From positions 1 through 47,289 of IMG/VR virus record IMGVR_UViG_3300042691_001185: a stretch of DNA of 47,289 nucleotides. One strand, given 5' to 3'. Below the pieces are notes generated by a model that searched no databases, was not told where the DNA came from, and was given only the letters and a program-made list of their open reading frames with translations. This document shows positions 7,060-25,900 of this stretch, in pieces (the stretch's first letter is position 1; each line of letters begins with the position of its first letter). Made by a program: the position numbers and the translations under genes. This DNA comes from a virus.

Positions 7060-7376
7060 CTAAAGGGAAACAGTTTCCCAAAGACGTAGTTGAACACTGG
7101 CCTGAAGTATTCGGGGAAATTACACTAAATGTAGTTCCCCTGCAATATCTTGACTCAATAACCGTTACTTTTAAAAATTCAAAAGTTTGGGAAATAAAAA
7201 TAGGTTCTAAACAGGCTTTAGATAATTGGGATTCTTTTGAAGAGAATCTCAAGGAAATGCTGTCATCATACGAAAGTGATATCGAAAATGTTGATTTTAA
7301 ATTAGACACAGAGAGAGTTAAAAAAGACATGATCAAAAATACAAATAAATTTTTAAGAAAGCGAAAACTAAAATGA
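7056..7376 (+). CDS. Hypothetical protein
   Basis: 106 residues beginning with GTG, chosen because GTGA overlaps the upstream stop and the N-terminus MTKGKQFPKDVVEHWPEVFG reads naturally. A beta-rich centre (ITLNVVPLQYLDSITVTF, KVWEIKIG) is followed by an acidic helix (WDSFEENLKEMLSSYES) and a strongly basic C-terminus (KKDMIKNTNKFLRKRKLK). The separation of charge suggests nucleic-acid or protein binding. Its stop overlaps the thyX start (ATGA), so the two are translated together. Confidence 0.72.
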   Translation: MTKGKQFPKDVVEHWPEVFGEITLNVVPLQYLDSITVTFKNSKVWEIKIGSKQALDNWDSFEENLKEMLSSYESDIENVDFKLDTERVKKDMIKNTNKFLRKRKLK

Positions 7377-8041
7377 ATGTCAAATTACTTAGCTTCAGTC
7401 AACCCACTAAAGAATTTGCAGATATGGGAATTGCAGATGCTCAAGAATTAATTGCATATTGTGCAAGAGTAAGTAATCCTAGTAATCAATTTAATACTGA
7501 AACTAGCGAGAAATTAATCAAGTATCTAGTTAAACACCAGCACTGGAGTCCATTAGAAATGGTTAGTGCTTGTATTGAAATCACAACAACACGTGATATT
7601 GCTCGTCAAATTCTAAGACACAGAAGTTTTAGTTTTCAAGAGTTTAGCCAACGTTACGCTGATCCAACAAAGGATCTCAACTTTGTTACTAGAGAAGCTA
7701 GACTGCAAGACACTAAGAATAGACAAAACAGTGTAGAAACAGATGACACGTTGCTACAGAACGAATGGTTCCGTGCGCAACAACGAGTTATCTATGCGGC
7801 ACAACGTGAGTATGAATGGGCAATTAAAAACGGTATTGCCAAAGAACAAGCCCGAGCTGTTTTACCAGAAGGGCTTATTGAAAGTAGAATTTATATGAAC
7901 GGAACACTACGCTCTTGGATTCACTTTATTGAATTACGTAGTGCTAACGGCACACAGAAAGAGCATCAGGAAGTTGCTAAGGCGTGTGCATCTGTAATTG
8001 CAACAGTATTTCCTATGATGTCAGGTTTAGTTTCTTCTTGA
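7373..8041 (+). CDS. thyX: Flavin-dependent thymidylate synthase ThyX
   Basis: Makes dTMP from dUMP using methylene-tetrahydrofolate, FAD and NADPH, supplying thymidine for phage DNA synthesis. The signature RHRX7S is present: RHRSFSFQEFS at 82-92, followed by QRY. The second half contains the expected substrate-site region around ESRIYMNGTLRSWIHFIELR. Length (222 aa) is typical for the family, so the gene appears complete. The start ATG overlaps the previous stop. Its last 76 bases run into the 3' end of a convergent glycosyltransferase-like gene, and a terminator for this strand lies about 85 bases after the stop. ThyX is common in environmental T4-like phages, whereas T4 itself has the unrelated Td enzyme. 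Confidence 0.96.
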   Translation: MNVKLLSFSQPTKEFADMGIADAQELIAYCARVSNPSNQFNTETSEKLIKYLVKHQHWSPLEMVSACIEITTTRDIARQILRHRSFSFQEFSQRYADPTKDLNFVTREARLQDTKNRQNSVETDDTLLQNEWFRAQQRVIYAAQREYEWAIKNGIAKEQARAVLPEGLIESRIYMNGTLRSWIHFIELRSANGTQKEHQEVAKACASVIATVFPMMSGLVSS

Positions 8042-9099
8042 TCTTTATCTAAAAACATTTCTGGAGGGAACAATTTGATATGTGCTTCAAATTGTTCTCT
8101 TAGCCATTCATAATCATTAATCATAGCAAGGGCGATTTTATCGCCCTTGTATGTTTTTCCGTACCATTCCCCTGCACTAGCACCACCTTTTACATATTCG
8201 CCCAAAGGTCGGCTTCCACCTTTCGAAGTCCAAGCTAGTAGACGCTCGTTAGTTTCTTCTTGCACTTGTCTATCAATGACGCCCGATGCTAGTTTAGCAC
8301 ACTCTCTAAATGCACCTCTCCATGCATTAAATGGGTTAGTTGCAAAATTGTTAATGTTAGATATCTCATCTATTATTTTGATCTTTGCTCCAATACTGGT
8401 AGTAACGTCTACCGCAGTATCTTCATCAGCCATTAGAATTAAGTGTTTAGGAATTAACTTAATACCACTGTGACCATATTCTAAATGATTGATAGGATTT
8501 ATACTTTTCCAAATATGCACTACATCAAAATCCCATTCTGGAACTGTATAATGAAAATCAAATGCGTCTATTACTGTAGCATCTGCGTCTACTACCCAGA
8601 AAAAGTCAGTAACTGATTGTTTAGCTGCGGCTAAGTGTGCATTAAAAATGCCTTTAACACCTGAGATAAGTTTTACATCAGATCGCTTTTCTTTTAAATA
8701 TCTCAAATTTTTATTAGCATTATTTTCATCGTACTGAATAAAAAATACATCGTATGCAAGGTACGATATAATATCAGTATAAACAAACTTTTTATCTAAC
8801 TGCTCACCGGATGTATTTTTAGGGACTAGATAAATTTTAGCAGTTTTAGACTCGAATACATGAAAATATTGTTTATCCCACTCTTCAACTTTATAGTCAA
8901 TCAATTTTTCCCAACCTTGAACTTCTATATCAATTAACCATGCCATCGAGGTTATAAAAGTTACCTGTTTAGATAGAGAATCTACAGAACCACTATGCTG
9001 TTTAAATTTTGCATAAGGATATGTAACTGTTAGAGTATCAATTAATTTTCTAACATTTTCGGTTTTATTTTTGTAATAAAAAATAATATCATTATTCAT
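7966..9099 (-). CDS. Glycosyltransferase-like protein (GT-A fold suspected)
   Basis: 377 residues. A central FFWVVDADATVIDAF (about 166-180) places a DxD motif at the end of a strand, as in nucleotide-sugar-dependent GT-A glycosyltransferases. Downstream WDFDVVHIWKSINP and the GHSGIKLIPK segment parallel the neighbouring paralogue (GNGGLKLWPK). The first 110 residues are additional to that paralogue and resemble a degenerate first domain. The start overlaps the previous gene as ATGA. The C-terminal 25 codons overlap the 3' end of thyX on the other strand, and an internal hairpin at codons near 320 acts as a + strand terminator. Enzyme class is inferred; donor and acceptor are unknown. Confidence 0.72.
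   Translation of the reverse strand: MNNDIIFYYKNKTENVRKLIDTLTVTYPYAKFKQHSGSVDSLSKQVTFITSMAWLIDIEVQGWEKLIDYKVEEWDKQYFHVFESKTAKIYLVPKNTSGEQLDKKFVYTDIISYLAYDVFFIQYDENNANKNLRYLKEKRSDVKLISGVKGIFNAHLAAAKQSVTDFFWVVDADATVIDAFDFHYTVPEWDFDVVHIWKSINPINHLEYGHSGIKLIPKHLILMADEDTAVDVTTSIGAKIKIIDEISNINNFATNPFNAWRGAFRECAKLASGVIDRQVQEETNERLLAWTSKGGSRPLGEYVKGGASAGEWYGKTYKGDKIALAMINDYEWLREQFEAHIKLFPPEMFLDKDQEETKPDIIGNTVAITDAHALATS
8127..8158 (+). terminator. Intrinsic terminator for the thyX transcript, inside the opposing gene
   Basis: CAAGGGCGA (8127-8135), loop TTTTA, TCGCCCTTG (8141-8149): nine perfect pairs with a GC-rich core, followed by TATGTTTTT (8150-8158). The T run exists only on the + strand side, so termination should act on transcripts coming from thyX. 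On the other strand the same bases encode KGDKIAL of the glycosyltransferase-like protein and would not terminate its mRNA. Confidence 0.75.
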
Positions 9100-10013
9100 T
9101 CTTTGTCTAAGAAACCAGTTCCTGTCCTATATTGTTGTATGTGTACTTCTTTGAAAAATTTACTAGCATCTGCATCAAGATTTGCAATTTCTAAATCAAG
9201 TGCATTTTTTAATTCTGTTCCTAACCAGTTAATTCGATACTCTAAATCAGTTGCAGGTCCATGTCCTTTATCTCGCCAATAACTTTCTAGCCAATCAAAA
9301 TCTCTAACATTAACATAGTCCCAGTCAGTACAGTTTGTCATATAACAGCCTTCTCGGGCTCCCATTATTGCCCAATCACCGTTTAACACATCTCTACCAA
9401 CATTAAGCCATACTAGTAATCGTTGTAGATTTTTCCAGTGTATTTCTTTTTTAAATTCTTTGTTAGCAGTCTTGACTCCGCGATCTAATGACATTTTAAC
9501 ACCTTCACGGAATCCTGCACGCCATGCCTGGAATGGAGTTGCATTATTATATACGTCACTGTAACAGCTATTCATCTGAATATATTCTGCATCCCAACAA
9601 AAATCTACTTGTGCATTAGGATCATCAGCGGGTGCGTTTTCATGCGTTTTCATGTCTAGCACATACTGTTTAGGCCATAATTTTAAGCCGCCATTGCCGT
9701 ACATGAGTCCGTTGACTACGTTATAGCCCGCCCATGAAATAACGCACTTGGATAAATCTTTGTGTTCTTCAAAGTTGACTTCTTGATTTAGAAAATCTTC
9801 ACGGACAATATTGTCACCATCTACTGTAACAAAACGATCTGTGTCACTTAGTCTAGCACATGCCTTGTGTGCTTCATCGCTACCTTTAACGCCATGGACA
9901 CGTTTTGCCCAAGGCACTTTAGTTAATAAGTCAGCGTAATTCTTTTCCGCGTTAGGCTCGTCGTAACTAAGATAGATAATATCGTAGTCTAAAATTTTAA
10001 CTGTTTGTGTCAT
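9096..10013 (-). CDS. Glycosyltransferase-like protein
   Basis: The frame is open from a TTG at 10031, but the ATG at 10013 is preferred because the protein then begins MTQTVKILDYDIIYLSYDE, like its neighbours that begin MTQG or MTRG; 305 residues. A DGD motif in RFVTVDGDNIV (about residues 61-71) follows a helix in the way GT-A nucleotide-sugar enzymes place their metal-binding DxD. It is a paralogue of the next gene downstream: both contain a YDE.NA.KN segment and a G.GG.KL/G.SGIKL pattern. From memory, related proteins occur in uncultured aquatic T4-like phages. It overlaps its upstream neighbour by 17 bases and its downstream one by 4. No acceptor can be assigned. Confidence 0.75.
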   Translation of the reverse strand: MTQTVKILDYDIIYLSYDEPNAEKNYADLLTKVPWAKRVHGVKGSDEAHKACARLSDTDRFVTVDGDNIVREDFLNQEVNFEEHKDLSKCVISWAGYNVVNGLMYGNGGLKLWPKQYVLDMKTHENAPADDPNAQVDFCWDAEYIQMNSCYSDVYNNATPFQAWRAGFREGVKMSLDRGVKTANKEFKKEIHWKNLQRLLVWLNVGRDVLNGDWAIMGAREGCYMTNCTDWDYVNVRDFDWLESYWRDKGHGPATDLEYRINWLGTELKNALDLEIANLDADASKFFKEVHIQQYRTGTGFLDKE

Positions 10014-10623
10014 ATAATATTTGATACCCAATTGTTGAAAAAAACTTTCTTACAAAGATTCTGTTTTCAACATCTGCCTCCTTGTGTAATTTGTGTTCAA
10101 TATAAATTCTATCATCGTCAAGCAAATCTTTTAACAATATTTTAATAGATCTAATCAACATATTATTATAATCTTTATCTACTATAAAAATTTCAAATGC
10201 TGTATTAAGATTGTGTTGTTTTAATATTGATCGCTGATCAGGGCGTAACTGAAATCCCCATTGTTTTAGCAATGGATAATTTTCAATTGTAAACATACTG
10301 TTCCAATGATCAACATTAGGAACTTCGTCTATATTAATAAGATTAACATCTGTATCATTTTTAGAAATAATTACAGGAGTAGTTTGATCAACAAACATAA
10401 CTTTGTAGTTTGAAGAAATTTTCTTTCCATTAAAAAATTCTTTTACAATGTCATATTCTACTTCAAAAAAGTTTGCAAGATCAGAGCGAGGCTCATTTGT
10501 AATTGCTAAAATGTTTCCTGTATCTTTATCGTAATATACATTATAAAGAGAATTAATTCTACTATTCATTAGAGCTTTTTCTAAAAGCTCATAAGGAATA
10601 ATGTCTTCTTCTGGATTATACAT
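9997..10623 (-). CDS. Hypothetical protein in the glycosyltransferase cassette
   Basis: 208 residues, not recognised. It is acidic in the N-terminal half and richer in Lys in the C-terminal third. Segments such as YKVMFVDQTTPVIISKND and FEIFIVDKDYNNMLIRSIK suggest alternating strands and helices, but no DxD-type or other catalytic motif stands out. It overlaps the genes on both sides (8 and 17 bases), so it is an obligate member of the coupled cassette. It could be a partner or a specificity subunit for the flanking enzymes; this rests only on position. Confidence 0.7.
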   Translation of the reverse strand: MYNPEEDIIPYELLEKALMNSRINSLYNVYYDKDTGNILAITNEPRSDLANFFEVEYDIVKEFFNGKKISSNYKVMFVDQTTPVIISKNDTDVNLINIDEVPNVDHWNSMFTIENYPLLKQWGFQLRPDQRSILKQHNLNTAFEIFIVDKDYNNMLIRSIKILLKDLLDDDRIYIEHKLHKEADVENRIFVRKFFSTIGYQILYDTNS

Positions 10624-11440
10624 TTAATTTCCTTAAAATGTTATCAGTAAGAAATGCATCTTCTACATAATGAAACACGCCTGTTTGTTTAAAATTGTTT
10701 ACAAATAATTCACGTTTAGAATTAAAATTAACAATGGCCTGACTTAAAAATGATTCAGGTGTAGGATCCCAACTTTGAAGTGCAGGTTTCATGTGTGTAA
10801 ATGTAAAGGGACTGTTAGTGCTAATAATTTGATCGTCTATTCCTAACAGTTTTGCGGCAATAGAAAATGTTACATCCATACTAAAAAACTTTTGTGTTTG
10901 TTTTGGTGCAACTTCATAGAAAATTCGTTGCCAGTTGTAAGTGATAAATTCTACCAGTTTAAAGAACTCTAACGATTCAGCAGACTTTTTAAAGTAATAC
11001 ATTCCAGAATATAAATCTGGTAAATCATTTTCTTCAAATGTTTTTCTATAAGTTCTGTCAGTAATTACACGCCCTTTGTAATCACGCACATTTGACGAGA
11101 AGAATAAATTTCGTTCTTTGGTAAATTTCCAGATGCGTTCAATGTTTTCTAAAATTAAAACATCTGCGTCCAGTGCAATAGTTTCATCATATGGACTAGC
11201 GTGATATAACTTCCAACGATTTTCAACTTTCCATTCACTTGCCTCAGCTTGATCGCCAAATGGAATAGGAATAATTTTATCAAATGCACTAACGTATTCT
11301 TCAGGCACCGTATCATTAGTTACTAGACTAATATTATTGATTGTAGGCTGTGTAGCTTTGATACTTAATGCAAGAGCATAGGCTTGTCTAACATAATCTA
11401 CATCACTGTTTTGTGCAAGTACTATAAAGCCACGTGTCAT
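10616..11440 (-). CDS. Glycosyltransferase-like protein (GT8-like)
   Basis: 274 residues. N-terminal MTRGFIVLAQNSDVDYVRQA leads into an alpha/beta region; TIALDADVLILENI (about 91-104) carries DAD on a strand end, as in GT8 and related GT-A families. Later YSGMYYFKKS and a His-containing FTFTHMKPALQSWDP resemble the acceptor-side and second metal-binding parts of that family. It is a clear paralogue of the adjacent upstream gene (shared MTxG, SPYDET, D-x-D and YYFKK/FYFKK). The start ATG overlaps the upstream stop (ATGA). The substrate is unknown; tail fibre, baseplate protein, or a modified DNA base are the options suggested by context. Confidence 0.78.
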   Translation of the reverse strand: MTRGFIVLAQNSDVDYVRQAYALALSIKATQPTINNISLVTNDTVPEEYVSAFDKIIPIPFGDQAEASEWKVENRWKLYHASPYDETIALDADVLILENIERIWKFTKERNLFFSSNVRDYKGRVITDRTYRKTFEENDLPDLYSGMYYFKKSAESLEFFKLVEFITYNWQRIFYEVAPKQTQKFFSMDVTFSIAAKLLGIDDQIISTNSPFTFTHMKPALQSWDPTPESFLSQAIVNFNSKRELFVNNFKQTGVFHYVEDAFLTDNILRKLNV

Positions 11441-12273
11441 ACTAGTACCTCATCAAGGCATCGTGTTAGACTGTATTTGTTCATAATGTGCATGTCAAGT
11501 CCGACTGTTTTAGTTGCTACATATTCGCCTGAATAGTTTTTCTTTTCAACTAAGAATTGATATGCGTTATCTTTAATCTTAACTAAGATATCTCTATCTA
11601 ATGTATAATTCATTTTGCCAGGAAGAGGGCCTGCAAATTCATCGCCCATCATAGATACTGCTATACTAAAGGCAAAGTCATTTCTAAATACGCTAGAATC
11701 AATATTATAAAGTGCTCTATAATAACTCCAGTTAGATTTAATGTTTTTTATAATATCAAAGAATGCTTGATTAGCAGTTGTCTTTTTAAAATAAAATGCT
11801 GTAGCCCAATAGAAAGGTATTGACAATTGATTTAAGTATCTAAAACTTCGATCATCTCTCCACTGTGCTAGATCAAAACTGTCTTGATAAATTAAAAAGT
11901 CTTTTGCATGTCCCCATATTTTAGACAAGTTATTGCTACTAATAATATAGTCACTGTCAATTACCAGTGTCTCGTCATAAGGGCTTAATTCGTAGCAATC
12001 ACTTCTAGTAAGGTTTTTCCACGTTAATGTTTTAGAGGCAAGTGTTCCGTCGTAAAATTTCTTTGTTTGACTAGTATCTGAATTAATAGTTATGATTCTA
12101 TCAAAAACTGTTTTAGCTGTAGGTTGGCTTTGTAGTAGCCAATCTTTACTATCTGTAACTAAACTAACAGGAACATTTAAATATTTTTCTACTCGTTGAG
12201 CAGCATATAGTGAAATCTTTGCATAGTCAATTTCATTATTATTTTGTGCAAAAATTAGTACACCCTGTGTCAT
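11437..12273 (-). CDS. Glycosyltransferase-like protein, paralogue of its neighbour
   Basis: 278 residues. It shares the architecture of the next gene: MTQGVLIFAQNNNEIDYAK at the N-terminus, then ELSPYDETLVIDSDYIISSN (about 99-118) with a DSD motif in the place of DAD, then FYWATAFYFKKTTANQAF. The DSD variant keeps both acidic positions, so metal binding is still plausible. The end (GLDMHIMNKYSLTRCLDEVL) contains a His suited to the second metal-ligand site of GT8-like enzymes. It overlaps its upstream gene by ATGA. Two adjacent paralogues suggest duplication and division of labour, for instance successive sugar additions. Confidence 0.75.
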   Translation of the reverse strand: MTQGVLIFAQNNNEIDYAKISLYAAQRVEKYLNVPVSLVTDSKDWLLQSQPTAKTVFDRIITINSDTSQTKKFYDGTLASKTLTWKNLTRSDCYELSPYDETLVIDSDYIISSNNLSKIWGHAKDFLIYQDSFDLAQWRDDRSFRYLNQLSIPFYWATAFYFKKTTANQAFFDIIKNIKSNWSYYRALYNIDSSVFRNDFAFSIAVSMMGDEFAGPLPGKMNYTLDRDILVKIKDNAYQFLVEKKNYSGEYVATKTVGLDMHIMNKYSLTRCLDEVLV

Positions 12274-12617
12274 AGTTCAACTAAACCTTCAACTCGGCGT
12301 TTTGACTTTATTTCACCATATTTAGCTAGATACGCATTAGTGGCTAGACTGTAGACGTTTAAAATACTGTTAAGGAATTCTTTAAGATTTACCACGTTCA
12401 GTGGTATGTTATTATCATCTAAAATAACTGATTCTGTATTTCCAAGTTCTGTCAATGTATGTACAAAAACAATTAACTCACGAGTTACTGTAAATGTAGA
12501 CCCTTGAAAATAATAAATGAGATTTTGTTTATATTCTTCTAAAGCAACTCGTCGTAAGTTGCTTAAACTTGCCATGTAATTGGCAGTTTGAAATGCTTTT
12601 TCTAATCGTTCGTCCAC
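12270..12617 (-). CDS. Conserved small phage protein heading the glycosyltransferase operon
   Basis: 115 residues starting with GTG at 12617, chosen because GGAGG (12628-12624) lies six bases upstream and a consensus promoter sits just behind. Mostly helical: MDERLEKAFQTANYMASLSN, then LIYYFQGSTFTVTRELIVFV, an acidic VILDDNNIPLNV turn, and a long C-terminal helix. The pattern resembles small proteins next to fibre and glycosyltransferase genes in T4-like marine phages, whose function I do not know. A chaperone or assembly role for fibres is possible but unproven. Stop and next start overlap as ATGA. Confidence 0.75.
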   Translation of the reverse strand: MDERLEKAFQTANYMASLSNLRRVALEEYKQNLIYYFQGSTFTVTRELIVFVHTLTELGNTESVILDDNNIPLNVVNLKEFLNSILNVYSLATNAYLAKYGEIKSKRRVEGLVEL

Positions 12618-12636: not shown

Positions 12637-12665
12637 ACTATAACTTATAGTAGTTAGCTTGTCAA
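12637..12665 (-). promoter_or_regulatory. Sigma70-type promoter for the glycosyltransferase cassette, with palindrome
   Basis: Read on the - strand: TTGACA (12665-12660), 17-base spacer, TATAGT (12642-12637). The expected start is near 12630, so the leader is only about 13 bases and begins almost at the GGAGG. The -10 lies in the perfect inverted repeat ACTATAA-C-TTATAGT (12637-12651), extended by CTAA/TTAG arms at 12632-12635 and 12654-12657 with one unpaired base, a possible operator. This promoter would let the cassette be read early, apart from the late fibre operon behind it. Confidence 0.82.
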
Positions 12666-12696: not shown

Positions 12697-13599
12697 TTAG
12701 GCTGCTGTTGGTGTCAGTACGGAAACGTTTACGCCGGTTGGACGGAATTGTGCAAACACTGAGTTTAGTGTTGGCTGTACATCTTCGTCAAAGTTTGGAT
12801 CGCCAGCATCATTATCTTGGTATTCTGCTGTTAAAATAATTTGAGTAGAGTCTGCACTTTTTCTTGCATATAGATAATATCTATTTTCAGCATACGCACC
12901 AGAAGGTGCTGCTTTTTGTCCAATTAATTGATTGCTAGTTGTTAGATCTTCAAATCCTATAGCTGATCCTGTTGCACTAGCACCTGTGTATGTAGTGGCA
13001 GTATAATTCATTCGAAATTCACCCATTTGAGTGAACATGGTATTCCACGTGTTATTTTTACTAGTGCCTGTAGTAATATTTGCACTAGCACGTAATGATC
13101 CGCCAGCATTAAAGAAATAACGTAGGTTTGCGGCTGCACCGTCTCCGCCTGCATTACCAGTAATAGTAACTGTATGAGTTAGTGTACCGTTCCACGTTGC
13201 AGACTGTGTACGAGTTAATAGACTCTCATCAGTCAATTGACCTCCGCCACTAGTACTATCAACTGCATATCTGTTAGTAGTTATTGTTGTTGCCATTGCT
13301 GCAAATTGTGCTCGCAATGCCTCAGTAATAGAAGCACCGCTTGCAGGAACAACTAAATTTAAACCGTCAGTTGCAGTACCACTGCCAACTGCTGCACCTA
13401 GCTGGTGTTGTCTTGCACTAACCATATCAGTTCTTAAATTTAACCATTGCAATGCTGTTATAACACTACCAGTTGTTACGTCGGATGACGCTAATGTTTG
13501 GCCGTAACCTGCTGTGTTTCTTCCTAATACATTGTTAACTGTAGTTCTAATAGAATTATAGTCTGTATTTTGAATTAATTGTCCTACGCCTGCTGCCAT
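12697..13599 (-). CDS. Tail-fibre-like virion structural protein
   Basis: 300 residues. The N-terminal 75 residues (MAAGVGQLIQNTDYNSIRTT, then NTAGYGQT and ITALQWLNLRTDMV) form a small helical head resembling proteins in the structural region of marine T4-like phages. The remainder is rich in Thr, Ser, Gly, Ala and Asn with a repetitive strand pattern (GNAGGDGAAANLRYFFNAGG; STQIILTAEYQDNDAG), as expected of a beta-rich fibre or decoration protein. No transmembrane or enzymatic motif is present. AAGGAAAG lies ahead of the ATG. It is the last gene of the late fibre group; the next cassette has its own promoter. Exact virion location is unknown. Confidence 0.75.
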   Translation of the reverse strand: MAAGVGQLIQNTDYNSIRTTVNNVLGRNTAGYGQTLASSDVTTGSVITALQWLNLRTDMVSARQHQLGAAVGSGTATDGLNLVVPASGASITEALRAQFAAMATTITTNRYAVDSTSGGGQLTDESLLTRTQSATWNGTLTHTVTITGNAGGDGAAANLRYFFNAGGSLRASANITTGTSKNNTWNTMFTQMGEFRMNYTATTYTGASATGSAIGFEDLTTSNQLIGQKAAPSGAYAENRYYLYARKSADSTQIILTAEYQDNDAGDPNFDEDVQPTLNSVFAQFRPTGVNVSVLTPTAA

Positions 13600-13608
13600 T
13601 TTCTTTCC

Positions 13609-14757
13609 TTACAATATAATTGCTTCTACTAACTTTACACCAGTATCGTTACTAGATTCTAAAGCAATAGCAAACACATCAGTTGAATGCTGCACTCCTA
13701 CACTAGCACAGCCATCGTTAGCTGCAATAAGATTATCACCTTTTTTCACTGCGCCAATAACTCGAACAGGTACACGCCCTTTTAGTGCAACATAAGTACC
13801 GCCTTCTAATTCGCTATTCATCATGTAAGCAGGATTTGTACTTACTGCACCAATTGCACGTTTGCCCCATGAACTAGCAGTTACTTCTTTTTCTCCACCT
13901 ACTACCATAACAGTACCTGGTGCATATTCTGCATCTGCAAGATATTTTTCTGCTAAGTCAGCAAATCTAGCTGTTGAAGCTATACCTTGGAATACATTAG
14001 CAAATAAATCTCCAGACCCGTCTCTAGCTGCAATAGTACTTGCGGTTGCTGCTGTAGCAGCAGTTCTTGCTGTTCCTGCAACATTTATACTATTTGCCTT
14101 TGTTGCATAACTAGCGGTTCCCCAAAATGTATGAGCTGATCCTGTTGTAATACCTGTTATTCCGGTATTAACTAAAGTTAACCCCTGCTTAATAACTGAG
14201 AAACCTGTAAGATCTGTTTCTATTGCAGTGTCAACTGTAAATTCATCTGCTGAAATAATATAAACAGTTTCATCATCGATTACTGCTTCTACAATAGCAT
14301 GAATTCCTCCGCCTGGGGTATCTACTACTGTTCTAGATCTCATCTGTGTAGTGCCAAGACCCGGAGCAGTTTGTGGTCCAATTAACACATAATCGTCTGC
14401 ATCAGTACGTGCATACAATTGATTATTACCATTATCAAACCAAAGATCGCCAGTGCTTAACCCTGCAGGAGCAGTTGTTTTTACTTCTGCACCGCCTGTT
14501 GTACGCCAAACATTGTTTTTATCATAAAACTTTAATTTGTTTTTTTCACTATCAAACCAAAGTTGTCCACTAGTAGGACGTGGAGGTGCGCTAGTGCCTG
14601 AGAAATTCTCCAGCAAATGTAAGAAATTCTCATTTTGTACTTCACCATAACCTGCGTAGTTTTTACCGATAAGTTTAATATCGAGTGTACTGTCGATCGT
14701 ACCGTCTTCTACTACTGTTAGTGTTGTACCATTATACTTGTCAATACTATATGGCAT
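13609..14757 (-). CDS. Tail-fibre-like protein with shared N-terminal and C-terminal modules
   Basis: 382 residues. The N-terminal module (about 1-75) has LIGKNYAGYGEVQNENFLHL followed by SGQLWFDSEKNKLKFYD, and a second GDLWFDNGNNQLY copy near 102-115. This module also begins the 372- and 708-residue neighbours. A linker of small residues (TAATAATAST) leads into a C-terminal domain (about 245-382) starting ADLAEKY and containing PGTVMVVGG, VSTNPAYMMN and LKGRVPVRVIGAVKKGD. The same domain forms most of the 195-residue protein at 18687. Probably a fibre or baseplate-attached spike. A CTAAATA late box lies 24 bases before the ATG and AAGGGG supplies the ribosome site. Confidence 0.82.
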   Translation of the reverse strand: MPYSIDKYNGTTLTVVEDGTIDSTLDIKLIGKNYAGYGEVQNENFLHLLENFSGTSAPPRPTSGQLWFDSEKNKLKFYDKNNVWRTTGGAEVKTTAPAGLSTGDLWFDNGNNQLYARTDADDYVLIGPQTAPGLGTTQMRSRTVVDTPGGGIHAIVEAVIDDETVYIISADEFTVDTAIETDLTGFSVIKQGLTLVNTGITGITTGSAHTFWGTASYATKANSINVAGTARTAATAATASTIAARDGSGDLFANVFQGIASTARFADLAEKYLADAEYAPGTVMVVGGEKEVTASSWGKRAIGAVSTNPAYMMNSELEGGTYVALKGRVPVRVIGAVKKGDNLIAANDGCASVGVQHSTDVFAIALESSNDTGVKLVEAIIL

Positions 14758-14781
14758 TTAGTTCCACCCCTTAACTTTATA

Positions 14782-14788
14782 TATTTAG
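14782..14788 (-). promoter_or_regulatory. Late-promoter-like box CTAAATA
   Basis: CTAAATA on the - strand (14788-14782), followed by TATAAAG, overlapping the stop codon of the upstream fibre gene and 24 bases before the ATG at 14757. It matches boxes before gp6 and before the gene at 43137 in sequence and spacing, and resembles the T4 late consensus TATAAATA read by gp55. Confidence 0.6.
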
Positions 14789-15903
14789 TTCAAATCAGCC
14801 CAAGTGCCTGGTGCGCCTGCAACAGTGCAAACTTGAACTACATTATCTGTTGTGTTATATATTAACTCGCCTTCTTCTGCATCTATTGCATCTCGATCGC
14901 CAGTAGTATATAACGGTAATTTAAATTTTGTACTTGCTCTAAAACTGCCTGCAACATCTAGCGTGTACGCAGGTGATGATTGAAAAATACCAATTCTTTC
15001 GTTTTGACAATCAATCTTAATAGCATCTTTAGTTCCACTACCGTTTTTAACACGGATAGCAAACTCTGTAACACTTGAATTGATTGATTCTATTTTAAAT
15101 TGAGATGTTGAAACATATACTTCAATTTTTCCGCCTAGAAGCATTAACTTTCCTGGAGTTGCAATACCAACAGCATCACCAGGAAGGGACAATGTGCCTC
15201 TCGCATAAATGAAAGGATCAGTCGTACTTAAGAAATCATTAGTAGTTTTTAAGGTTTGTGAACTTACATCAAACAGTGCATCAGATTCTGTAGCTCTTAC
15301 ATTGAATTTCATACCTGCCAAAGTACCTGCATTAAATCCTGGTTTAATTGTTCCAGTAAATCCTGGAATAGCAGTTATTGGTTGAAATGCAACGGTATTT
15401 TTACTAAAAATTCCAAGTAAAGTTTGTGCTACCCACAAATAAACAACTACTCGCAATGCACCATTGCTATCGTAAATAGACTCAACAGTAAATCCAGAAA
15501 GTCCTTGTGTATCTTTGTATATAGGACCTGCTAGTTGTAAATCTGTACCGTCAAAGAAATGTAATTGATTTTCTGCACTATCGATCCACAAATCACCTTG
15601 TACTAGATTTGTTGGTGCTGTACCAGTAACTAGTGGGCCGCTACCTATTCGAAAACCGTTGCCGTCGTATACTTTTAGTCTATTTTCAGCAGTATCAAAC
15701 CATATTTGTCCAGTAATAGGATTGTTAGGTTCACTTGTATTTGCAAAATTTTCTAATAGCTTTACTAAGTTTTCGTTAATAAACTCGCCGTATCCTGAGA
15801 CATTCTTACCAATAAGAGTAAGATCCGTAGCTATCTGATCAATTGCACTATCTACAACTTCTGCTAACAAAGAACCGTCTGTTTTATTAATCTTATAAGT
15901 CAT
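14785..15903 (-). CDS. Tail-fibre-like protein with the GKNxxGYGE N-terminal module
   Basis: 372 residues. N-terminal module: LTLIGKNVSGYGEFINENLV, then ITGQIWFDTAENRLKVYDG and the second VQGDLWIDSAENQLHFFDG copy. The middle (about 140-300) is beta-rich. The C-terminal end (SSPAYTLDVAGSFRASTKFK, then EGELIYNTTDNVVQVCT) has the pattern typical of phage fibre tips and of tail proteins with AYTLDV-type repeats, often followed elsewhere by an intramolecular chaperone, which is absent here. The start overlaps the stop of the 708-residue gene by one base. Likely a virion fibre component; receptor-binding role is inferred only from position. Confidence 0.8.
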   Translation of the reverse strand: MTYKINKTDGSLLAEVVDSAIDQIATDLTLIGKNVSGYGEFINENLVKLLENFANTSEPNNPITGQIWFDTAENRLKVYDGNGFRIGSGPLVTGTAPTNLVQGDLWIDSAENQLHFFDGTDLQLAGPIYKDTQGLSGFTVESIYDSNGALRVVVYLWVAQTLLGIFSKNTVAFQPITAIPGFTGTIKPGFNAGTLAGMKFNVRATESDALFDVSSQTLKTTNDFLSTTDPFIYARGTLSLPGDAVGIATPGKLMLLGGKIEVYVSTSQFKIESINSSVTEFAIRVKNGSGTKDAIKIDCQNERIGIFQSSPAYTLDVAGSFRASTKFKLPLYTTGDRDAIDAEEGELIYNTTDNVVQVCTVAGAPGTWADLN

Positions 15904-18029
15904 TAGATAATCCTACCAGTAAAAATTATGTAGTTTATTGTTAAGTATGGATTCATAACATTTAACGGAACATCAGTTATTACTGAATCTACGCCACCTG
16001 CGGTGGTTAAGAATTTAGTAAAACCTGGAATCATCTGTGCAGTACGGCCAACTGAATCACTATCAGTTATGCTGGCTGCTCCGCCTGTATCATCACTTGG
16101 AGCATAAAACTGTGTGCCGCCTGCTCCAGTTAAATCATGAGTATGATCAGGCAAGTTATTAGTTAATATTGAGCGTTCTTCAACTCCATTTCCTAATCCT
16201 ACTTGATCGGCTGTGATTTCTGTTACTCTATCTGCACTAGATCCAATAGTTGGTCCAGCAGTTACCCCCGATGGTAATAAGGGAACAACTAATCCGTTGT
16301 TCATGTTATCAGCACCTAGCGGGAATCTTCCTCTAAGATCAGGCAACCTAAATGTAGCTAGTCCCAAATAATCAGCAGGACCTTTATAAGTATTACCTAA
16401 AATTGCATACAATTCAGGGTACGAACTAATCTGAACTTCAGCGCCATCGCATAGCAAGTATCCGTTAGGAACAATTGATCCAGCAAATGGCATAATGCAA
16501 CCTGCAGGAACAGTTGCTACTGTCGATAAGAAACTAGTCTTTGATAATTTTCTTACACCAGTTCCAACTCTATTAATTAAAAATTCATCAGTGCCTAATG
16601 ATTCAAAAACTTCAGTTTTAGATGAAATTAAAGTTGGACTTAGTGCTGTGGTAAACACTGCAACGCCTCCTACTTGTTGTCCATTAAAACTAATTGTGTT
16701 ACTAGTAATGTCTCCAGTAATTGAAAAATTTGTTGGGCTAGTTAGTGTAGTGGCTGTACCTGTTACTGATCCATTAAATGCTCCGGAGAATTCTCCGGTA
16801 AACACAGTAGAACCATCTAAGTTTCCAACAGTGTTAGCAAATATTCTTTGATAACGTTTATCTTCAGCACCTAAATCCCAACTATCATCGTCGATAGGTT
16901 TAACAGTATTAGTTAAAGTAGTTCCTTCAATGCTTGCGCCGGTCCCTACTCGCAAAGTTTTACCAATACTAGCACCACCTGTTGTTGTGATACTACCGTT
17001 TGTAAGTGTAGTAGAGTCGTTAATGGCTGTAATTTTAAGGCCGCCAGTAGCTGCAATTTTTCCGATAATGTCCAGTGCTTCAGTCGGTGCTTTGTTTATA
17101 CCAACTTTAGAATCTACAACAGTAATAACATCGGTCGCTGTTCCGCCTTGATTAGTTCTAATAAAAATACTAGAACCTTCATTCTTATTGTACAGAACTG
17201 CTGCACCATTTTTAACAGTTAAAGATGTAGTTAAGTCGGCTCCGATAGTTAGCCCTGCATCATTACGAAGGTTAAGTCCATAATTTGAAGTACCAGTAAC
17301 GTCAGTACGGAGGAAACTATTTGCATCTAACCCGTCTGGATACCCGGACACAATTAATTTAGATGCTCTATCTGCTGTACCCCAAAATTTATTAAGTACA
17401 GTACCATCAAGGTCAAAGTCTTTACTAGACATATTAATACCTTGATTAATTGTAGTAAATCCAGAGATAACTGACTTCGGAGTAAATGCATCTTTACTAA
17501 CAATTGCTATTATTTCTCCACTAACTATAAAATTTAAAATAGTATGATCAATATTAAAAGTATCAGTTGCTATTTCAATTTTTGGTCCGGATTGTGCGCC
17601 TTCACTAAACTGTGGGCCTACTAAAATCCAGCTAGAACCAGACCATAGATATAATTGTTGATTTGCAGTATCGACCCATAGATCGCCAATAACTGCCGTA
17701 GTTGGCTGTAGTGTTTTCTTTGTAACATTGCCGGCAGCTACCCAACTAGTGGCGCCACCGCCATCGACAGTACAAATTTTTAGCTGAGGCTGTGGTGGAT
17801 TATTATCAGAATCTGTATCGTACCATAACTGACCAATTACTGGATTTACAGGTGCTGTAGCACTGGCAAAGTGTTCTAATAAATGTAGGAAATTTTCTGC
17901 TAGAACTTTAGAATAACCTGTATAGTTCTTACCTACAAATCCTAAACTTGTTTCGACATTGATTGTTTGATCTTCTACAGTAATACTACCGTAGTTCGGT
18001 TTGTCTGTGCGGTCTATTTCATATGACAT
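15903..18029 (-). CDS. Tail-fibre / short-fibre-like protein with phage tail collar domain
   Basis: 708 residues. N-terminal module: GFVGKNYTGYSKVLAENFLH and VIGQLWYDTDSD, then a second GDLWVDTANQQLYLW copy. The long centre (about 190-490) is Thr/Ser/Gly/Asn-rich with repeats such as AFNGSVTGTATTLTSPTNFS, typical of fibre shafts. The C-terminal part is a phage tail collar domain, as in T4 gp12 and related proteins: PNGYLLCDGAEVQ near 517, YPELYAILGNTY near 534, FRLPDLRGRFPLG near 558, then LPDHTHDL and a final PYLTINYIIF. GAGG lies seven bases before the ATG, inside the previous gene's end (TAATG). Probably a receptor-contacting fibre; which T4 fibre it replaces is uncertain. Confidence 0.87.
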   Translation of the reverse strand: MSYEIDRTDKPNYGSITVEDQTINVETSLGFVGKNYTGYSKVLAENFLHLLEHFASATAPVNPVIGQLWYDTDSDNNPPQPQLKICTVDGGGATSWVAAGNVTKKTLQPTTAVIGDLWVDTANQQLYLWSGSSWILVGPQFSEGAQSGPKIEIATDTFNIDHTILNFIVSGEIIAIVSKDAFTPKSVISGFTTINQGINMSSKDFDLDGTVLNKFWGTADRASKLIVSGYPDGLDANSFLRTDVTGTSNYGLNLRNDAGLTIGADLTTSLTVKNGAAVLYNKNEGSSIFIRTNQGGTATDVITVVDSKVGINKAPTEALDIIGKIAATGGLKITAINDSTTLTNGSITTTGGASIGKTLRVGTGASIEGTTLTNTVKPIDDDSWDLGAEDKRYQRIFANTVGNLDGSTVFTGEFSGAFNGSVTGTATTLTSPTNFSITGDITSNTISFNGQQVGGVAVFTTALSPTLISSKTEVFESLGTDEFLINRVGTGVRKLSKTSFLSTVATVPAGCIMPFAGSIVPNGYLLCDGAEVQISSYPELYAILGNTYKGPADYLGLATFRLPDLRGRFPLGADNMNNGLVVPLLPSGVTAGPTIGSSADRVTEITADQVGLGNGVEERSILTNNLPDHTHDLTGAGGTQFYAPSDDTGGAASITDSDSVGRTAQMIPGFTKFLTTAGGVDSVITDVPLNVMNPYLTINYIIFTGRII

Positions 18030-18640
18030 TATGCTACCTCACTTAAACCAGTTAAACTTTGAATACGCACAGTATAGTCAATTTGAATTAGACGATTTAA
18101 TGATTTTTGAACTGGGTGAAAAATAACGTGAGTTAACAACCGTCCTGAACCAGTTGGATCATAAGATTTTAATCCTAATTCATCAAATACAAATGTTCCA
18201 TTTGTATTAGTAGAGTTATCAAATGCATCTTGTACGCCGGGCTCGCCGTAGTCAAGTAAACAAGTAATAAAGACATCAGTATAGTTTGTACCAGTAACAT
18301 GACGTGTTTCAATTTTATTACGAATTGGATCAATGTTTATGCTTGACTGATCATCAACAACCTTAGAGTAAGTTTCGTTATATAAACTTGCATTAGTTCC
18401 TGTTGAATTTGGTGTTAAATATGTAATAATACCAGTAGGATCAATTGTTGTCCCGCCGTTACCAAACGCCATTTGATAGATAAATCCTTGTCCAGCATTT
18501 GCAATGCTCTCTGCTAGAGAAATACTCATGTTTTCATAATGAATTGCATTACGCTTATTAATATACACTTCGCCTGTTTCAGGGTTATGTATTTTAATAT
18601 GTCCTTCGATGTGGATTCCTGTTAAGTCTTTACCTTGCAT
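18029..18640 (-). CDS. Virion structural protein (fibre/baseplate associated), function unknown
   Basis: 203 residues. It starts MQGKDLTGIHIEGHIKIHNP, with ETGEVYINKRNAIHYENMS showing a beta pattern, then a helix (ISLAESIANAGQGFIYQMAF) and a GNGG loop; the end KSLNRLIQIDYTVRIQSLTG is strand-like. Proteins with this order occur in the structural cluster of marine T4-like phages next to collar-domain fibres, where they may form an adaptor or sheath around the fibre base, but I cannot name a function. GTAAATA lies 18 bases upstream and AGAG serves as the ribosome site. The stop overlaps the next ATG by one base. Confidence 0.75.
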   Translation of the reverse strand: MQGKDLTGIHIEGHIKIHNPETGEVYINKRNAIHYENMSISLAESIANAGQGFIYQMAFGNGGTTIDPTGIITYLTPNSTGTNASLYNETYSKVVDDQSSINIDPIRNKIETRHVTGTNYTDVFITCLLDYGEPGVQDAFDNSTNTNGTFVFDELGLKSYDPTGSGRLLTHVIFHPVQKSLNRLIQIDYTVRIQSLTGLSEVA

Positions 18641-19961: not shown

Positions 19962-22900
19962 TTAATCAAGCTCCAATGGTTCATTATCGTCTGTTAATAG
20001 TGTTACACCTTCGTCAGTTGCTAACACATATTGATATTTATCAACCAAATACTGTGAGAATATTGTCTCAGTATTTTTAATAAAGTTGGCAATATCAGTG
20101 TTTGCGTAGGTTAAATCTTCATCATTTCTGTTCCAAATGTGTCCAACTTTTTTAACTACTGTTACTTGTGCTTCTTCGTCTGCGGCAGTAGTTAATGTAA
20201 CATTATTTGACGAATTATTGATTGTAAATTCAGCAGCTAGTTTTATATCGCCTTCTTTTGTTGTACCAACAGGGCTAAGTTCTGATATTGGTACTGCTGG
20301 GCTATATGGGTAACCGTTAGATTCTTTAAACAATGTATAATTGTTTTTCTTTAATCTATATCCGCTAGCAAATACTTCCACAGAATTCTTAACAAGAGTA
20401 GTAGTTTCGTTAGCTGTCATTTCTCTACCTTGATATTGATATTCTGTTGTAAATGTGCTCGGTGTAAAGTTTAATGATATTGTTGCATCGACCCCATTAC
20501 TAATCACAGTATCTGATATAATTCTATCTTTATACGGAATAGTTTCAGATGGTCCAATATCAAGTACAATAGTTCTAACTCTATGTAGTGCTGGTGCACC
20601 TGTACCTAATGTTGCTCTACGAAGTTGTCCAAGAACATTACCTACCTTTGTAAAGTATTCAATACGCTCGCCGTTGATTTCAATAATACCGGGCAAGTTT
20701 AATGCAGGATTAGGCGGACTTAGATTATTACCGTCAACTAGATAGATATTAAGATCTTTTTGTTGCAAGTCTCTAGCAAGTCTTGTAGATTTAGCTTTTG
20801 AAATACGTTTGTAATGTACACGATTTAACATGTCTTTAAACTGCATGTATCCATAACTAGCATTAACAATCCTATCACTAAAACAAATAACGTCTAACAT
20901 ATCAGATGTTAGAAGAGCAGTTTTTAACTTAATAGTTACTAGATCAGAATCTAAATAATAATCAATACTATGTGTTAATAATTGATTGTTTTTAATGATC
21001 CAAACATAATCATCAATTGCAACAGTTCTATTCAGTTTAAATCTTTTACCAAGCAAGTTCTCATAACGGTAATAATCGTAAGAACCAGGTACAATTGATC
21101 CTGAAAAACTTGTAAACTCCGCAGTTCTTTGAATTTCCTCAACATCATGATTGAAGAATGAAATAACTTCTGTTGAACTTAAAGTCGGAGGAGCTGTAAC
21201 AAATCTAATAAATCCAGAATCAATCGTATAATCAGCATTGGCAAAAGATGAGACTGTTAATAATGCGCCGTCTTTATATACAGATTTTCTTAAATTTACA
21301 CTCATAACTGCAATGTCAAAAATGTAATCTGAACCATATGCTAACTCAATACCGTCTACATACACCTTATAGTCTGTAGGTGTTGACACATATGGTCGAG
21401 ATTTGTAAGTTGTTAGTGCATAATTTAAAACATCATCTGCAAGAGTAAAATACTCTGTTACAGATGGTTGTAAAATTTGTCCGTCTTGAATAACTAATAC
21501 ATTATTAGCAGCTGGTTCTTTTATACCTACAGGATTTGTCAAAGCAAACTCTTTATTAAGTCCGTTGCCAGCAATAGTTTCACTTCTAATAATAGAAGCT
21601 GCCTGATTTTGATCACTTGTTATCATATAAGTGATTAAAGATCCTTCAGCTATGCTAGATCCAAATCTAATACCTACCTTTCCTGGAGAGTCGTATGAAT
21701 CGTTAGTGTTAAACAATTCATATGATACAGCCAATCCATCAACTAGAACCACTGAGCCTAATCCTTGTAGTTGCCAGGCGGCTGCTGTTATATACTCTGA
21801 TGTTGTGCCGTCAGCTACAAAATAATTAGTATCCATTAGATTATCAGCAGCTACACCAAACGATATTATGCTAACAATCTTCATACTAGCAGGTATTACT
21901 GTTAAAGTAATTGTTTGAGCTTGCCAGTTTACTGTGTAATCAATACCTTGTTTTAATATAACATTATCAATCTTAACAAATATCGATGCAAAGTTATTTA
22001 AAATTTGTCCAATAGTGAATTCATTAGTAACGCCGTTACCGTATTGATTCTTAAAGTAAATTTTTGCAGAACCAGATGTAGGTAACTGATAAACTTTAAT
22101 TGCCACTGCGTCTGTAATGTATCCTGGAACAATTTCTTCAGGAGCAGCACTTGTCATTGGAGTTACAAAGCCGTCACCGTCTAATATAATGTCATCAGGA
22201 GAAATACCTGTTGCGCTTGAATAAGCAAGGTCACCACCACTTAACTGCGTATCATATTCGCCAGGTTGAGGAGCAAAACTTCCATCGCTTGTGCTCTTAC
22301 GGAAAATAATTTTATCTCCGTTATTAATAGTTAAGTTTAAGCTAGGCAAATTAACTATAGAAGTTGTGCCGTTTCCAACAATAGTATCCATAACTACGTT
22401 TGGTTTGTTAGCCATAGGATATGATACAAAATCTGGGTCGTCAATTCTTATAAACGGATCATATGAATAACCAACAACAGCGCCGCCAGTACCTAGTACT
22501 GCAATAGCATCTAATGTGATTGAGAATCTGTTGTCAGCAATTACTTGACGAATTCTGTATGTTCCAGTGTAGTTACCAGTTGTTACTCCTGTAATTCTAA
22601 CAAACATGTTGTCGGTTAAGTTATGAGGTGTAGCTGTAGTAATCCACACAGATGTAGTATCTAACGGAGATACTATTACAGAACTTATATTAACTGATAC
22701 AAGCGGATTGTATCTAGAAATATAAACGTTAATTTTTTCTCCGTTTGACGGAGTATACGGTAATTTGAAGGACTGATACTGAGGTGTAGCTGTTCCAGTA
22801 CCGCCTAGATTCTTAACTACTAACACTTGTGTGCCAACAGTATAAGTTACATTGGTTGTACCTGCAACGGCATTCCAGTCAGTTGTACCAAGTGATACAA

Positions 22901-25900
22901 TAGTATAATATCTGCCTTCAAAGAAGTTTCCAGCTTTTACAACAGTTGTACTTACAACAACAATATAGTCGTCAAGTGCCGAATCAAACCCGTCCCACGA
23001 ATCAGTGAACCAAGGCAAACTATCCCAGCCTCCGCTAATGTTAAATCCTAATCCAGTAACATTTACGCCACCGTAATCAATTCCGGTCATTAGCTGTGCT
23101 AAATCTTTACCATACATTCCGCTTTCTGGACTGTAGTAGAAATTAATTCTGTCAGTAGCTGACAAGTGAACTACGTTTTTCTTATAAGTTATCTCAACTA
23201 CTGCACCAACTTCAGGCGCACTAGTTAATGTTAACAATCCAGAGTAGCTAGTGTACCCTCTTGCTGTTGACGTTTTAGTTGATAGTGCATAGTCGTCTCT
23301 TAACAAGTCAATGCCGTTTACTCTAACATAACAATCTTTGTCAATTTTAATTTCAGGACTAAACTTTAACGGCCACTGCAATCTTGATCCAGTGCCTGTA
23401 AATGATTCAGTTTCTGTAATTTCAGATATAAAGTAAGTTTTAGTAATTCTATCAAACTTAATGCTAATCTTATTGGCCCTTACAACTTCACTTTCAATTA
23501 TTACCGATGCTCTAGCTGCTGTTCCACCGACTGCTAATCCGCCTTCAATTGTTATTGTCGGTGCTTTTAAATAACCAGTACCATTTGATACTAGTTGTAT
23601 TCTATTAACTTTGCCATTGGCAATATATGCGTTAGCAGTTGCACCTTGTCCGAATCCGCCTTCAATTTTAACAACAGGATTTTCAATGTACCCGGCGCCG
23701 CCGTCAACAAGTTCAATACTTTTAACAGTAAAGCCAACATGATCGTACCAATGTTTCCAGGGATATGTAAGAAGCTCAGGTGATTCTGATTCAATTTCTC
23801 CTAAACTATTAATTTTAACATCAATAGGTGTAACTTTAAATCTAAGATCAATTGTAGGTAATAAATCAAAATCTGTTACTGAAGTTTGAGAATTATCTAA
23901 TCCAGTATAAGAACTGACATATTCTCTAACTTGTGTTCTGTATGGTTTAACTTCTTTAATGTAATCTTCAAAGTTTTCTAAATTATCACTATTATAATTT
24001 ACTTTTTGTTTTAAGCTACCAACATTATGAGTAGCTTTTACAAAACTAGTTTTGAACGCCCAGTCAATAAATGTTTGTTCGTGTAGTGCATATCTTACAG
24101 ATGCAAAGAATAGTTTTAAATAATCTACTCTTAATTCGTCAACAAGAATTTTGTCTCGTAGTGTATAGATAATTATTTTTAATTCAGCTTCTGCTAGATT
24201 GTCATAAATTTCAGAATCAAATAGCGCACTATCAAAACCAATAGATCCGTAGTTGTATAAAATATCTGAGAATTGTATTGTTCCGTTATTTCTTCCTATA
24301 ACTTTATAGTTCTGTGTATAATCAATAGTAACCAGAGTGTTATATTTTTCTAACAATAACCATCCACCAGTACCGATGTTATTAACTTTTACAATGCTGT
24401 TAACTGATACATCAAGTGTGGCAAGCTCATATGTGTTTTCAACAACGTAATCAATTTTAGTAAACTGATTGTATCCGGTTGCATACCAATCAATGTATTT
24501 CCAATATCTAGTAACATCATAAGACTGTCCTTTAGAACGATCCCATTTTAATGTATTAGCATTCCAGGTATGTGTACTCCACTTATTAAAAGTATTTGAG
24601 TCACTAATAACTAGAACAGTGAACGGTCTTACAATTAATCGTGTTTCTAAAATACCTTCTAGATATCCTTCTCCAGAATTTACTACTTCCACACTAGCAA
24701 CTTGTCCGTTGGCATTTATTTGTGTGCGCAGAATGGCGTTACGTCCTTGAGTATTAGTCTCAATAGATACATAAGGTGCGTTAACATAACCACGGCCAGC
24801 CTTAATTATATCGGCGCCGACAATTCTACCATTTTCAATGATAGGTATTAATTGAGCCTGTTCTAATGTAGCTACTCCGACAAATCTTAATTCGGCATCG
24901 GTATCAATAGTAATGTCCCATGTACCAGAAGATGCGGTTGGTAAAGCATCAAATTGTTCAAGGTCTGATAAATCATAATCATCAGCAAGCAATTTAGTAG
25001 ACAGTACAGAATTAACACGCTCTATATATTGTTTCAATGCTTCAACACGATTAACAAACATGCTTTGTCTTGGTCTAAATCCTACACCGTATCGTTGTTT
25101 GAAAGGTAGTTTAATGTCAGGCACAACACGATCATTATCGTCTTTTCCAATTAAACTGTGTATCCATTTCTTTTCAATTTCTAAAGGTAATACAGTATTA
25201 GGATGCTCACTTACAATTTTCCATTGATTGTGTGCATTTGTAGTAGTATAATTCATATCTACAGTCCAATATTGAACTGTAAGATTAAAGTTAGTACCGT
25301 CTATTAAGTTAGCTGCATTAACAAGGCTAAAAGAATTAGATCCAGTTAACGCCAAGCAGGTGTATCCTTCAGATATAGGATCTGAAATAAGTCTCGAAAT
25401 GTTATGTGCAGAAAGAGAACGTCCTATAATGTCAGGAGCAACTGTAGGGTTCTTAACCCAGTAATAGTAAGTCTTTTGGAATGATTGCGATATCGAATCG
25501 TACTTTTTCTTAACGCTGTATGCAGAGTTTCCGTATCGACTTTTACCAGTAATGTTTAATGAGTCGCCCTTATCAGTGCCCGATAATGCATCCCACTCAG
25601 AAGGCTTGTATTTTGTCTCTATCCATTCATAGATATCAATGCTAGCAGTTTCATAAAGTTTATTCCATGTACTTGATCTATAAACAATATTACCGCACTG
25701 GTTATCAATAAACTTAGCTCTAGTTAAATCCCACCACAACATTCCTACTTGCGATTTAGTCCAGTTCATACCATCATCATAATTTAATAATGAATTATTA
25801 GGAACAGTTCTATCAGTATCAAAGCTGTATGTTGCAGGGTCAAAGTAAGTTTTGTAACTTAATTCTTGATCAGCCGGGCCTGGAATTTTGCCTTGTATTG

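Follow-up and report, generated by a model that had tools for sequence, protein, structure and literature searches.

A six-gene cassette with four predicted glycosyltransferases, tied to one fibre-module gene in a jumbo-phage lineage

The IMG/VR virus record IMGVR_UViG_3300042691_001185, whose 47,289 bases taken as a whole we call the window, encodes T4-like baseplate, late sigma factor and gp46/47 genes and carries, beside its tail-fibre genes, a cassette of six overlapping open reading frames (ORFs) on the minus strand (12617-7966; transcription order g6, g5, g4, g3, g2, g1). We find that the six genes of this cassette form a fixed core linked to a single gene of the fibre module, w12697, and include a GT-A-like glycosyltransferase (GT) family with degenerate tandem half-domains; the kind of system that the cassette represents is already known. 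We give an even chance to the reading that the cassette glycosylates w12697 or nearby fibres, that is, that it serves virion glycosylation. The nearest matches to the gp46 of the window, at less than 50% identity, come from jumbo phages, namely Pseudomonas PA5oct/Paride (287 kb), Sinorhizobium Phosso (469 kb) and Agrobacterium Atu_ph07 (490 kb). The window is probably a fragment of such a jumbo phage, large and from freshwater, and the cassette is a core feature of a jumbo-phage lineage that is distant kin of PA5oct and Atu_ph07.

The cassette is real and conserved. Four of its six genes encode DxD proteins (DAD, DGD, DAD and DSD in g1, g2, g4 and g5), which form two paralogous pairs: hhalign joins g1 to g2 at 100% probability and g4 to g5 at 99.8%, every cross-pair falls below 5%, and by sequence the two pairs are unrelated to each other. 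The motifs are not due to chance, because both aspartates are invariant in all homologs sampled, 34-38 per family (g1 36/36, g2 34/34, g4 38/38, g5 34/34). In a first set of about 90 IMG/VR contigs, found by searching with g1 and g4, most of those that are sufficiently long have g6-g5-g4-g3-g2 in this order, slightly overlapping, behind the same fibre genes; g1 lies next to g2 or a few genes further on, and in some contigs it is beyond reach. In the window the overlaps, counted from the g1 end, are 4, 17, 8, 4 and 4 nucleotides (nt) when g2 starts at ATG 10013, and a start at TTG 10031 would instead extend the g2/g3 overlap to 35 nt. Thus, the six genes, the four motifs, the two pairs and the overlaps of 4-17 nt that the original prediction had described are borne out with this g2 start, and the motifs can now be located to the base.

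The g4 product (274 aa; 10616..11440, minus strand; DAD at 11162-11170, D91/D93) is predicted to be a GT8-like glycosyltransferase. Its profile matches glycogenin in the PDB (E 4e-6) with the DxD motifs of both aligned, and its AlphaFold2 (AF2) model, with a mean predicted local distance difference test (pLDDT) score of 94.5, retrieves glycogenin with Foldseek (3e-9) and superposes on it with a VIA Z of 15.8 over 207 residues (root-mean-square deviation 3.5, ~15% identity). The top structural matches are glycogenin, LARGE1 and LgtC. Its paralog g5 (278 aa; 11437..12273, minus strand; DSD at 11950-11958, D106/D108) would have the same GT8-like fold, judging from its homology to g4; the g5 and g2 profiles found nothing credible among PDB sequences. 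Because the pair stays below the Pfam PF01501 cut-off (13.5 bits for g4 of the window vs 24.3, and no match for g5), we call g4 and g5 GT8-like and do not file them as GT8 members. The g4 family matches PHROG 1903, which has no functional label, in 30/37 members (best 2.5e-11).

The second pair is more distinctive in its architecture. The g1 product (377 aa; 7966..9099, minus strand; DAD at 8581-8589, D171/D173) has a GT-A-like catalytic domain at about residues 113-252 and a helical C-terminal part. In its AF2 model (mean pLDDT 84.4) residues ~113-252 form a nucleotide-sugar-binding half with the DxD, which matches B4GALNT1, SpsA and WrtF with VIA Z 9.6-11.2 over up to 136 residues; nucleotidyltransferases are about as close structurally to g1 as GT-A enzymes are, and NTP_transferase, searched for in 12 relatives with a good control, was found in none. 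We therefore word the class as GT-A-like, on the basis of the DxD, the predicted fold and the context. The g2 product (9096..10013, minus strand; ~305 aa from ATG 10013 or 311 aa from TTG 10031; DGD at 9813-9821, D71/D73) is the most conserved of the six cassette proteins and probably shares this fold, given its homology to g1. No curated family in the libraries searched scores above threshold for either protein; Glycos_transf_2 is matched in 7/31 members of the g1/g2 family with a best E of only 0.009, and g1 has a weak fold match to a Che8 glycosyltransferase (E 8e-3). As far as these libraries show, g1 and g2 constitute an undescribed GT-A-type family.

In both models the DxD directly follows a strand (166-171 before D171-D173 in g1, 86-90 before D91-D93 in g4), in agreement with the earlier placement of the motifs at strand ends. 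The suggestion that the four proteins have GT8 or other GT-A folds holds in part: GT8 fits g4 and, through homology, g5, and it does not fit the g1/g2 pair, for which the model of g1 is GT-A-like and g2 follows as its paralog. Two outcomes named beforehand as telling against the enzyme assignment, a fold unrelated to GT-A and DxD positions that are not conserved, were both looked for, and neither was found.

Residues 1-110 of g1 (8770..9099, minus strand) are a degenerate copy of its own catalytic Rossmann half that has lost the DxD. This copy aligns with the catalytic half at 99.3% hhalign probability (E 2.5e-20, 100 columns), five control profiles (g3-g6 and w12697) remain below 1% in the same comparison, and the DxD columns vary in the copy. 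Distant g1 relatives of ~225 aa are without it. By contrast, the g1 of contig L072 has three degenerate units ahead of one catalytic domain, and that of L054 has seven units, with a 321-bp tandem repeat inside the gene (5.9 copies, 87%; L054:12681-14552). The L054 array may be an assembly artefact, but the principle also holds in L072 and the window. That such units bind or measure something is our guess.

The two remaining genes encode putative small partner proteins. The g6 product (115 aa; 12270..12617, minus strand) is conserved, starts with GTG in the window and with MDERLEKAF in relatives, and has no significant family match. The g3 product (208 aa; 9997..10623, minus strand) evolves fast, reaches 434-444 aa in some relatives, and matches no family above 1e-3.

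The linkage of this core to the fibre module suggests that a fibre-module protein is the acceptor. The candidate is w12697 (300 aa; 12697..13599, minus strand), which precedes g6 and lies next to an upstream fibre module (13609..18640, minus strand) identified by PHROG tail-fibre matches and by synteny with PA5oct, Atu_ph07 and Phosso; its genes are 13609-14757, 14785-15903, the fibre-like 15903-18029 and w18029 (18029-18640). Because the first set of contigs had been chosen by its enzymes, a second set was drawn through w18029, a gene with more than 561 relatives, independently of them. In this set g6/g5 follow in 32/33 contigs that have w12697 with at least 1.5 kb downstream. In the sole exception, L188, what comes after w12697 is a mannose-6-phosphate-isomerase-like cupin together with a different GT8, which scores above the Pfam cut-off. 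A further 12 contigs of the set, with at least 3 kb of room, are without w12697, and the cassette is present in 0/12. In 10/12 the fibre genes abut an opposite-strand thyA (often with DHFR), w6412, a phrog_1314 gene and an ATPase; this flank is that of the window, but w12697 and g6-g1 are jointly missing, and the junction is an apparent empty site. In the window the replication-side flank is marked by ThyX (7373..8041, plus strand; Pfam Thy1 9e-45), which converges on the end of g1 and overlaps it. The empty-site clade has ThyA with DHFR in place of this ThyX (L152:14638-15995, and similarly L151, L184 and L180).

Other observations are consistent with a virion acceptor. The PA5oct homolog of w12697, gp360, was detected in virions by mass spectrometry according to its record. 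The Ser+Thr content of w12697 (23%) is the highest among the window proteins tested, a weak hint, as structural proteins are often rich in these residues. Furthermore, the divergence of g4/g5 tracks that of the fibre protein 13609 (rho 0.76-0.77).

A sigma-70-like promoter, TTGACA-17-TATAGT (12637..12665, minus strand), lies 19 nt before g6. It is the top-scoring site in the region (11/12), and its class has three exact matches in the window, before g6, before 4146 and before gp55 (43215). A site at a similar position upstream of g6 exceeds shuffles in about 20 of the 34 family members tested, the window and distant members included, and this conservation supports the promoter. The earlier claim of an early-type promoter proper to the cassette thus stands for the sequence, and its early use we infer. 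The T4 late box TATAAATA, sought as a sign of late fibre expression, has 0 sites in the window vs 7.9 expected, even though the window encodes a late sigma factor of the gp55 type (43215-44039).

We envisage that g4 and g5 (GT8-type), g1 and g2 (GT-A-type) and the small partners g3 and g6 would be made from their own host-type promoter, that the enzymes would use nucleotide sugars of the host to form a glycan in the cytoplasm, and that a freshly synthesized protein of the fibre module would receive this glycan prior to assembly, with the adjacent w12697 as the likeliest target. What we infer in this model is catalytic activity, the sugar donors, the sequence of the transfer steps, the early timing and, most of all, the acceptor.

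Several observations weigh against fibre glycosylation. On the w18029 tree the joint absences of w12697 and the cassette represent just two events, so the association is not statistically independent, and the Fisher p of 5e-10 obtained for it takes no account of kinship. In PA5oct and Paride a w12697-like virion gene is present but the cassette is not, the divergence of g1 does not track the fibres (rho 0.02), and a shared slot is no proof that w12697 is the substrate. Finally, an early promoter together with sugar-nucleotide genes suits a change of the host surface at least as well. According to that alternative, early-made enzymes add sugars to the lipopolysaccharide (LPS) core or O-antigen of the host and so exclude other phages (superinfection exclusion), which we regard as possible if rather doubtful. 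The host-type promoter is in keeping with it, GT8 takes in LPS enzymes such as LgtC, which is similar to g4, and host-surface modification is the published reading of both the pelagimyophage GT8 genes (PMC7029224) and the jumbo cyanophage GT clusters (PMC7824862). Nevertheless, the six genes are a core whose order stays constant in diverse contigs, whereas the argument for surface diversification draws on sporadic, polymorphic clusters, and the presence or absence of the core tracks a fibre-module gene.

In several relatives the operon is longer, with anything from a single gene to more than ten lying between g2 and g1 or behind g2, and these genes bear on the same question. We sampled 76 extension ORFs, including a few g1/g3 fusions and genes just past g1. 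Among them are families of UDP-glucose dehydrogenase, epimerase, aminotransferase, carbamoyltransferase, hexapeptide transferase and FkbM methyltransferase, the first three of which fit a real sugar pathway; such sugar-nucleotide genes are compatible with virion glycosylation and suit action on the host surface at least as well. None of the 76 encodes a protein with at least two transmembrane-like segments and no flippase or polymerase was seen, which speaks against action on the host surface, as do the cassette enzymes, which are mostly acidic, without transmembrane segments and, in the window copies of the GTs, without a basic C-terminal tail.

Phage glycosyltransferases often target DNA, as is established for T4-type phages, and early expression would fit glycosylation of a base in the phage genome. 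Since the window is probably a fragment of a jumbo phage, the lack of a DNA-modifying gene in the window alone carries little weight. PF00303 (thymidylate synthase / pyrimidine hydroxymethylase) was found in 0/16 long cassette-bearing contigs, including contigs of 365, 328, 262 and 201 kb, none certified complete and with other base-modification routes outside this search, whereas the same search was positive in 7/7 cassette-less relatives, whose PF00303 protein we read as thymidylate synthase because it often lies beside DHFR. A Tet_JBP search gave nothing, and as its positive control was silent we do not use it as strong evidence. The predicted folds moreover match GT8 and GT-A, and a DNA acceptor seems to us extremely improbable. 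The original prediction, which had already ranked a modified base below the virion or the cell surface, was right on the type of enzyme and is partly supported on the acceptor.

Radical-SAM proteins raise a further alternative, namely that the GTs and radical-SAM enzymes of the operon produce a modified peptide or a small molecule, or that a protein of the fibre region receives other groups from them, sugars being a minor part. Radical_SAM is found in 30/76 extension ORFs, and 30 match the twitch radical-SAM family NF033640. Furthermore, Phosso (L097:17609-24742) and Atu_ph07 (L098:17811-24549) have a cassette with at least three radical-SAM proteins at the corresponding place after the fibre gene; that of Phosso also encodes a cupin and a 306-aa protein with a Cys/His-rich tail, YCHTSCHASCHSSRSRR, resembling a modified substrate of the RiPP (ribosomally synthesized and post-translationally modified peptide) kind. 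We considered these cassettes as homologs of g1-g6 and rejected this, as there is no homology. Between g2 and thyX no radical-SAM gene is present in the window or in its closest relatives, and therefore the core must work without radical-SAM, which makes this alternative improbable in our judgment.

It is conceivable, if unlikely, that the post-fibre slot is exchangeable, such that the lineage swaps enzyme cassettes (GTs; GTs with radical-SAM; another GT8 set; radical-SAM alone) to vary the protein chemistry of the fibre region and does not depend on fibre mutation only, with arrays of inactive g1 GT half-domains helping to hold or measure the acceptor. Another fibre-distal cassette, at L176:13398-17953, encodes proteins that by eye are GT-like (DQD, DID) and fatty-acid-desaturase-like, plus a methyltransferase-like one. 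For a fibre locus combining radical-SAM and GTs we found nothing relevant in the openly accessible literature beyond the pelagimyophage paper (PMC7029224).

Searches with tblastn using g1, g2, g4, g5, g6 or diverged members gave no credible match in cultured phages, and hidden Markov models (HMMs) of g4, g6 and g1/g2 found none in nine of them (four cyanophages, HTVC008M, PA5oct, Paride, Phosso and Atu_ph07). Cellular relatives of g2 were sought in genome contigs; the nine loci obtained all lie on contigs of metagenome-assembled genomes (MAGs), several of them phage-like (the cassette occurs on two, of 335 and 108 kb), with no clear cellular homolog. The cassette is present on contigs L099, L102 and L105 (335, 108 and 153 kb), which were assigned to marine bacterial MAGs and probably represent misbinned phage DNA. 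The window also has a 4653-aa gene at 19962-33923 whose homologs in Atu_ph07, Phosso and PA5oct carry the annotation virion structural protein.

Glycosyltransferases near phage fibres are usually ascribed to a change of the host surface without test. Here a fixed core linked to one structural gene, together with natural empty sites and replacements, makes available a defined set of enzymes, a defined candidate acceptor and naturally occurring negatives. Should the fibres be glycosylated, receptor binding by phages of lakes and seas may hinge on chemistry produced by enzymes, to which host-range prediction from sequence is blind.

Compared with known enzymes, g4 resembles GT8 (glycogenin, LgtC, LARGE1) in its profile, aligned DxD and whole-length fold and differs by ~15% identity and its sub-cut-off Pfam score, whereas g1 113-252 has the nucleotide-sugar-binding half with DxD of GT2/GT12-type GT-A folds (SpsA, B4GALNT1, WrtF) and differs by its helical C-terminal part and the lack of a significant sequence family. 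Among phage systems, the host-recognition cluster of pelagimyophages, aquatic T4-like phages, has a single island in which the fibres stand together with GT8 genes and radical-SAM cassettes and which is described as hypervariable and non-syntenic, with host-surface modification preferred (PMC7029224). The lineage of the window differs in that six genes in fixed order form a core, and HMM search of the cultured pelagiphage HTVC008M detects neither g4 nor g6 nor g1/g2. Jumbo cyanophage polysaccharide clusters, for which host-surface modification is likewise preferred (PMC7824862), share paralogous GTs with sugar-nucleotide genes and have no described tie to one fibre-module gene; P-SSM2 and the other cyanophages tested have no g4, g6 or g1/g2 homolog. 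The moraphages, an aquatic jumbo lineage with mostly Bacteroidota hosts, have four putative glycosyltransferase groups in their core genome (PMC12619734), a likeness to the present cassette by description. As cited in that same paper (PMC12619734), mycobacteriophage virion proteins carry glycans on capsid and tail tube; by this account the proposed mode would be the same, there on capsid and tail tube and here, as proposed, on the fibres.

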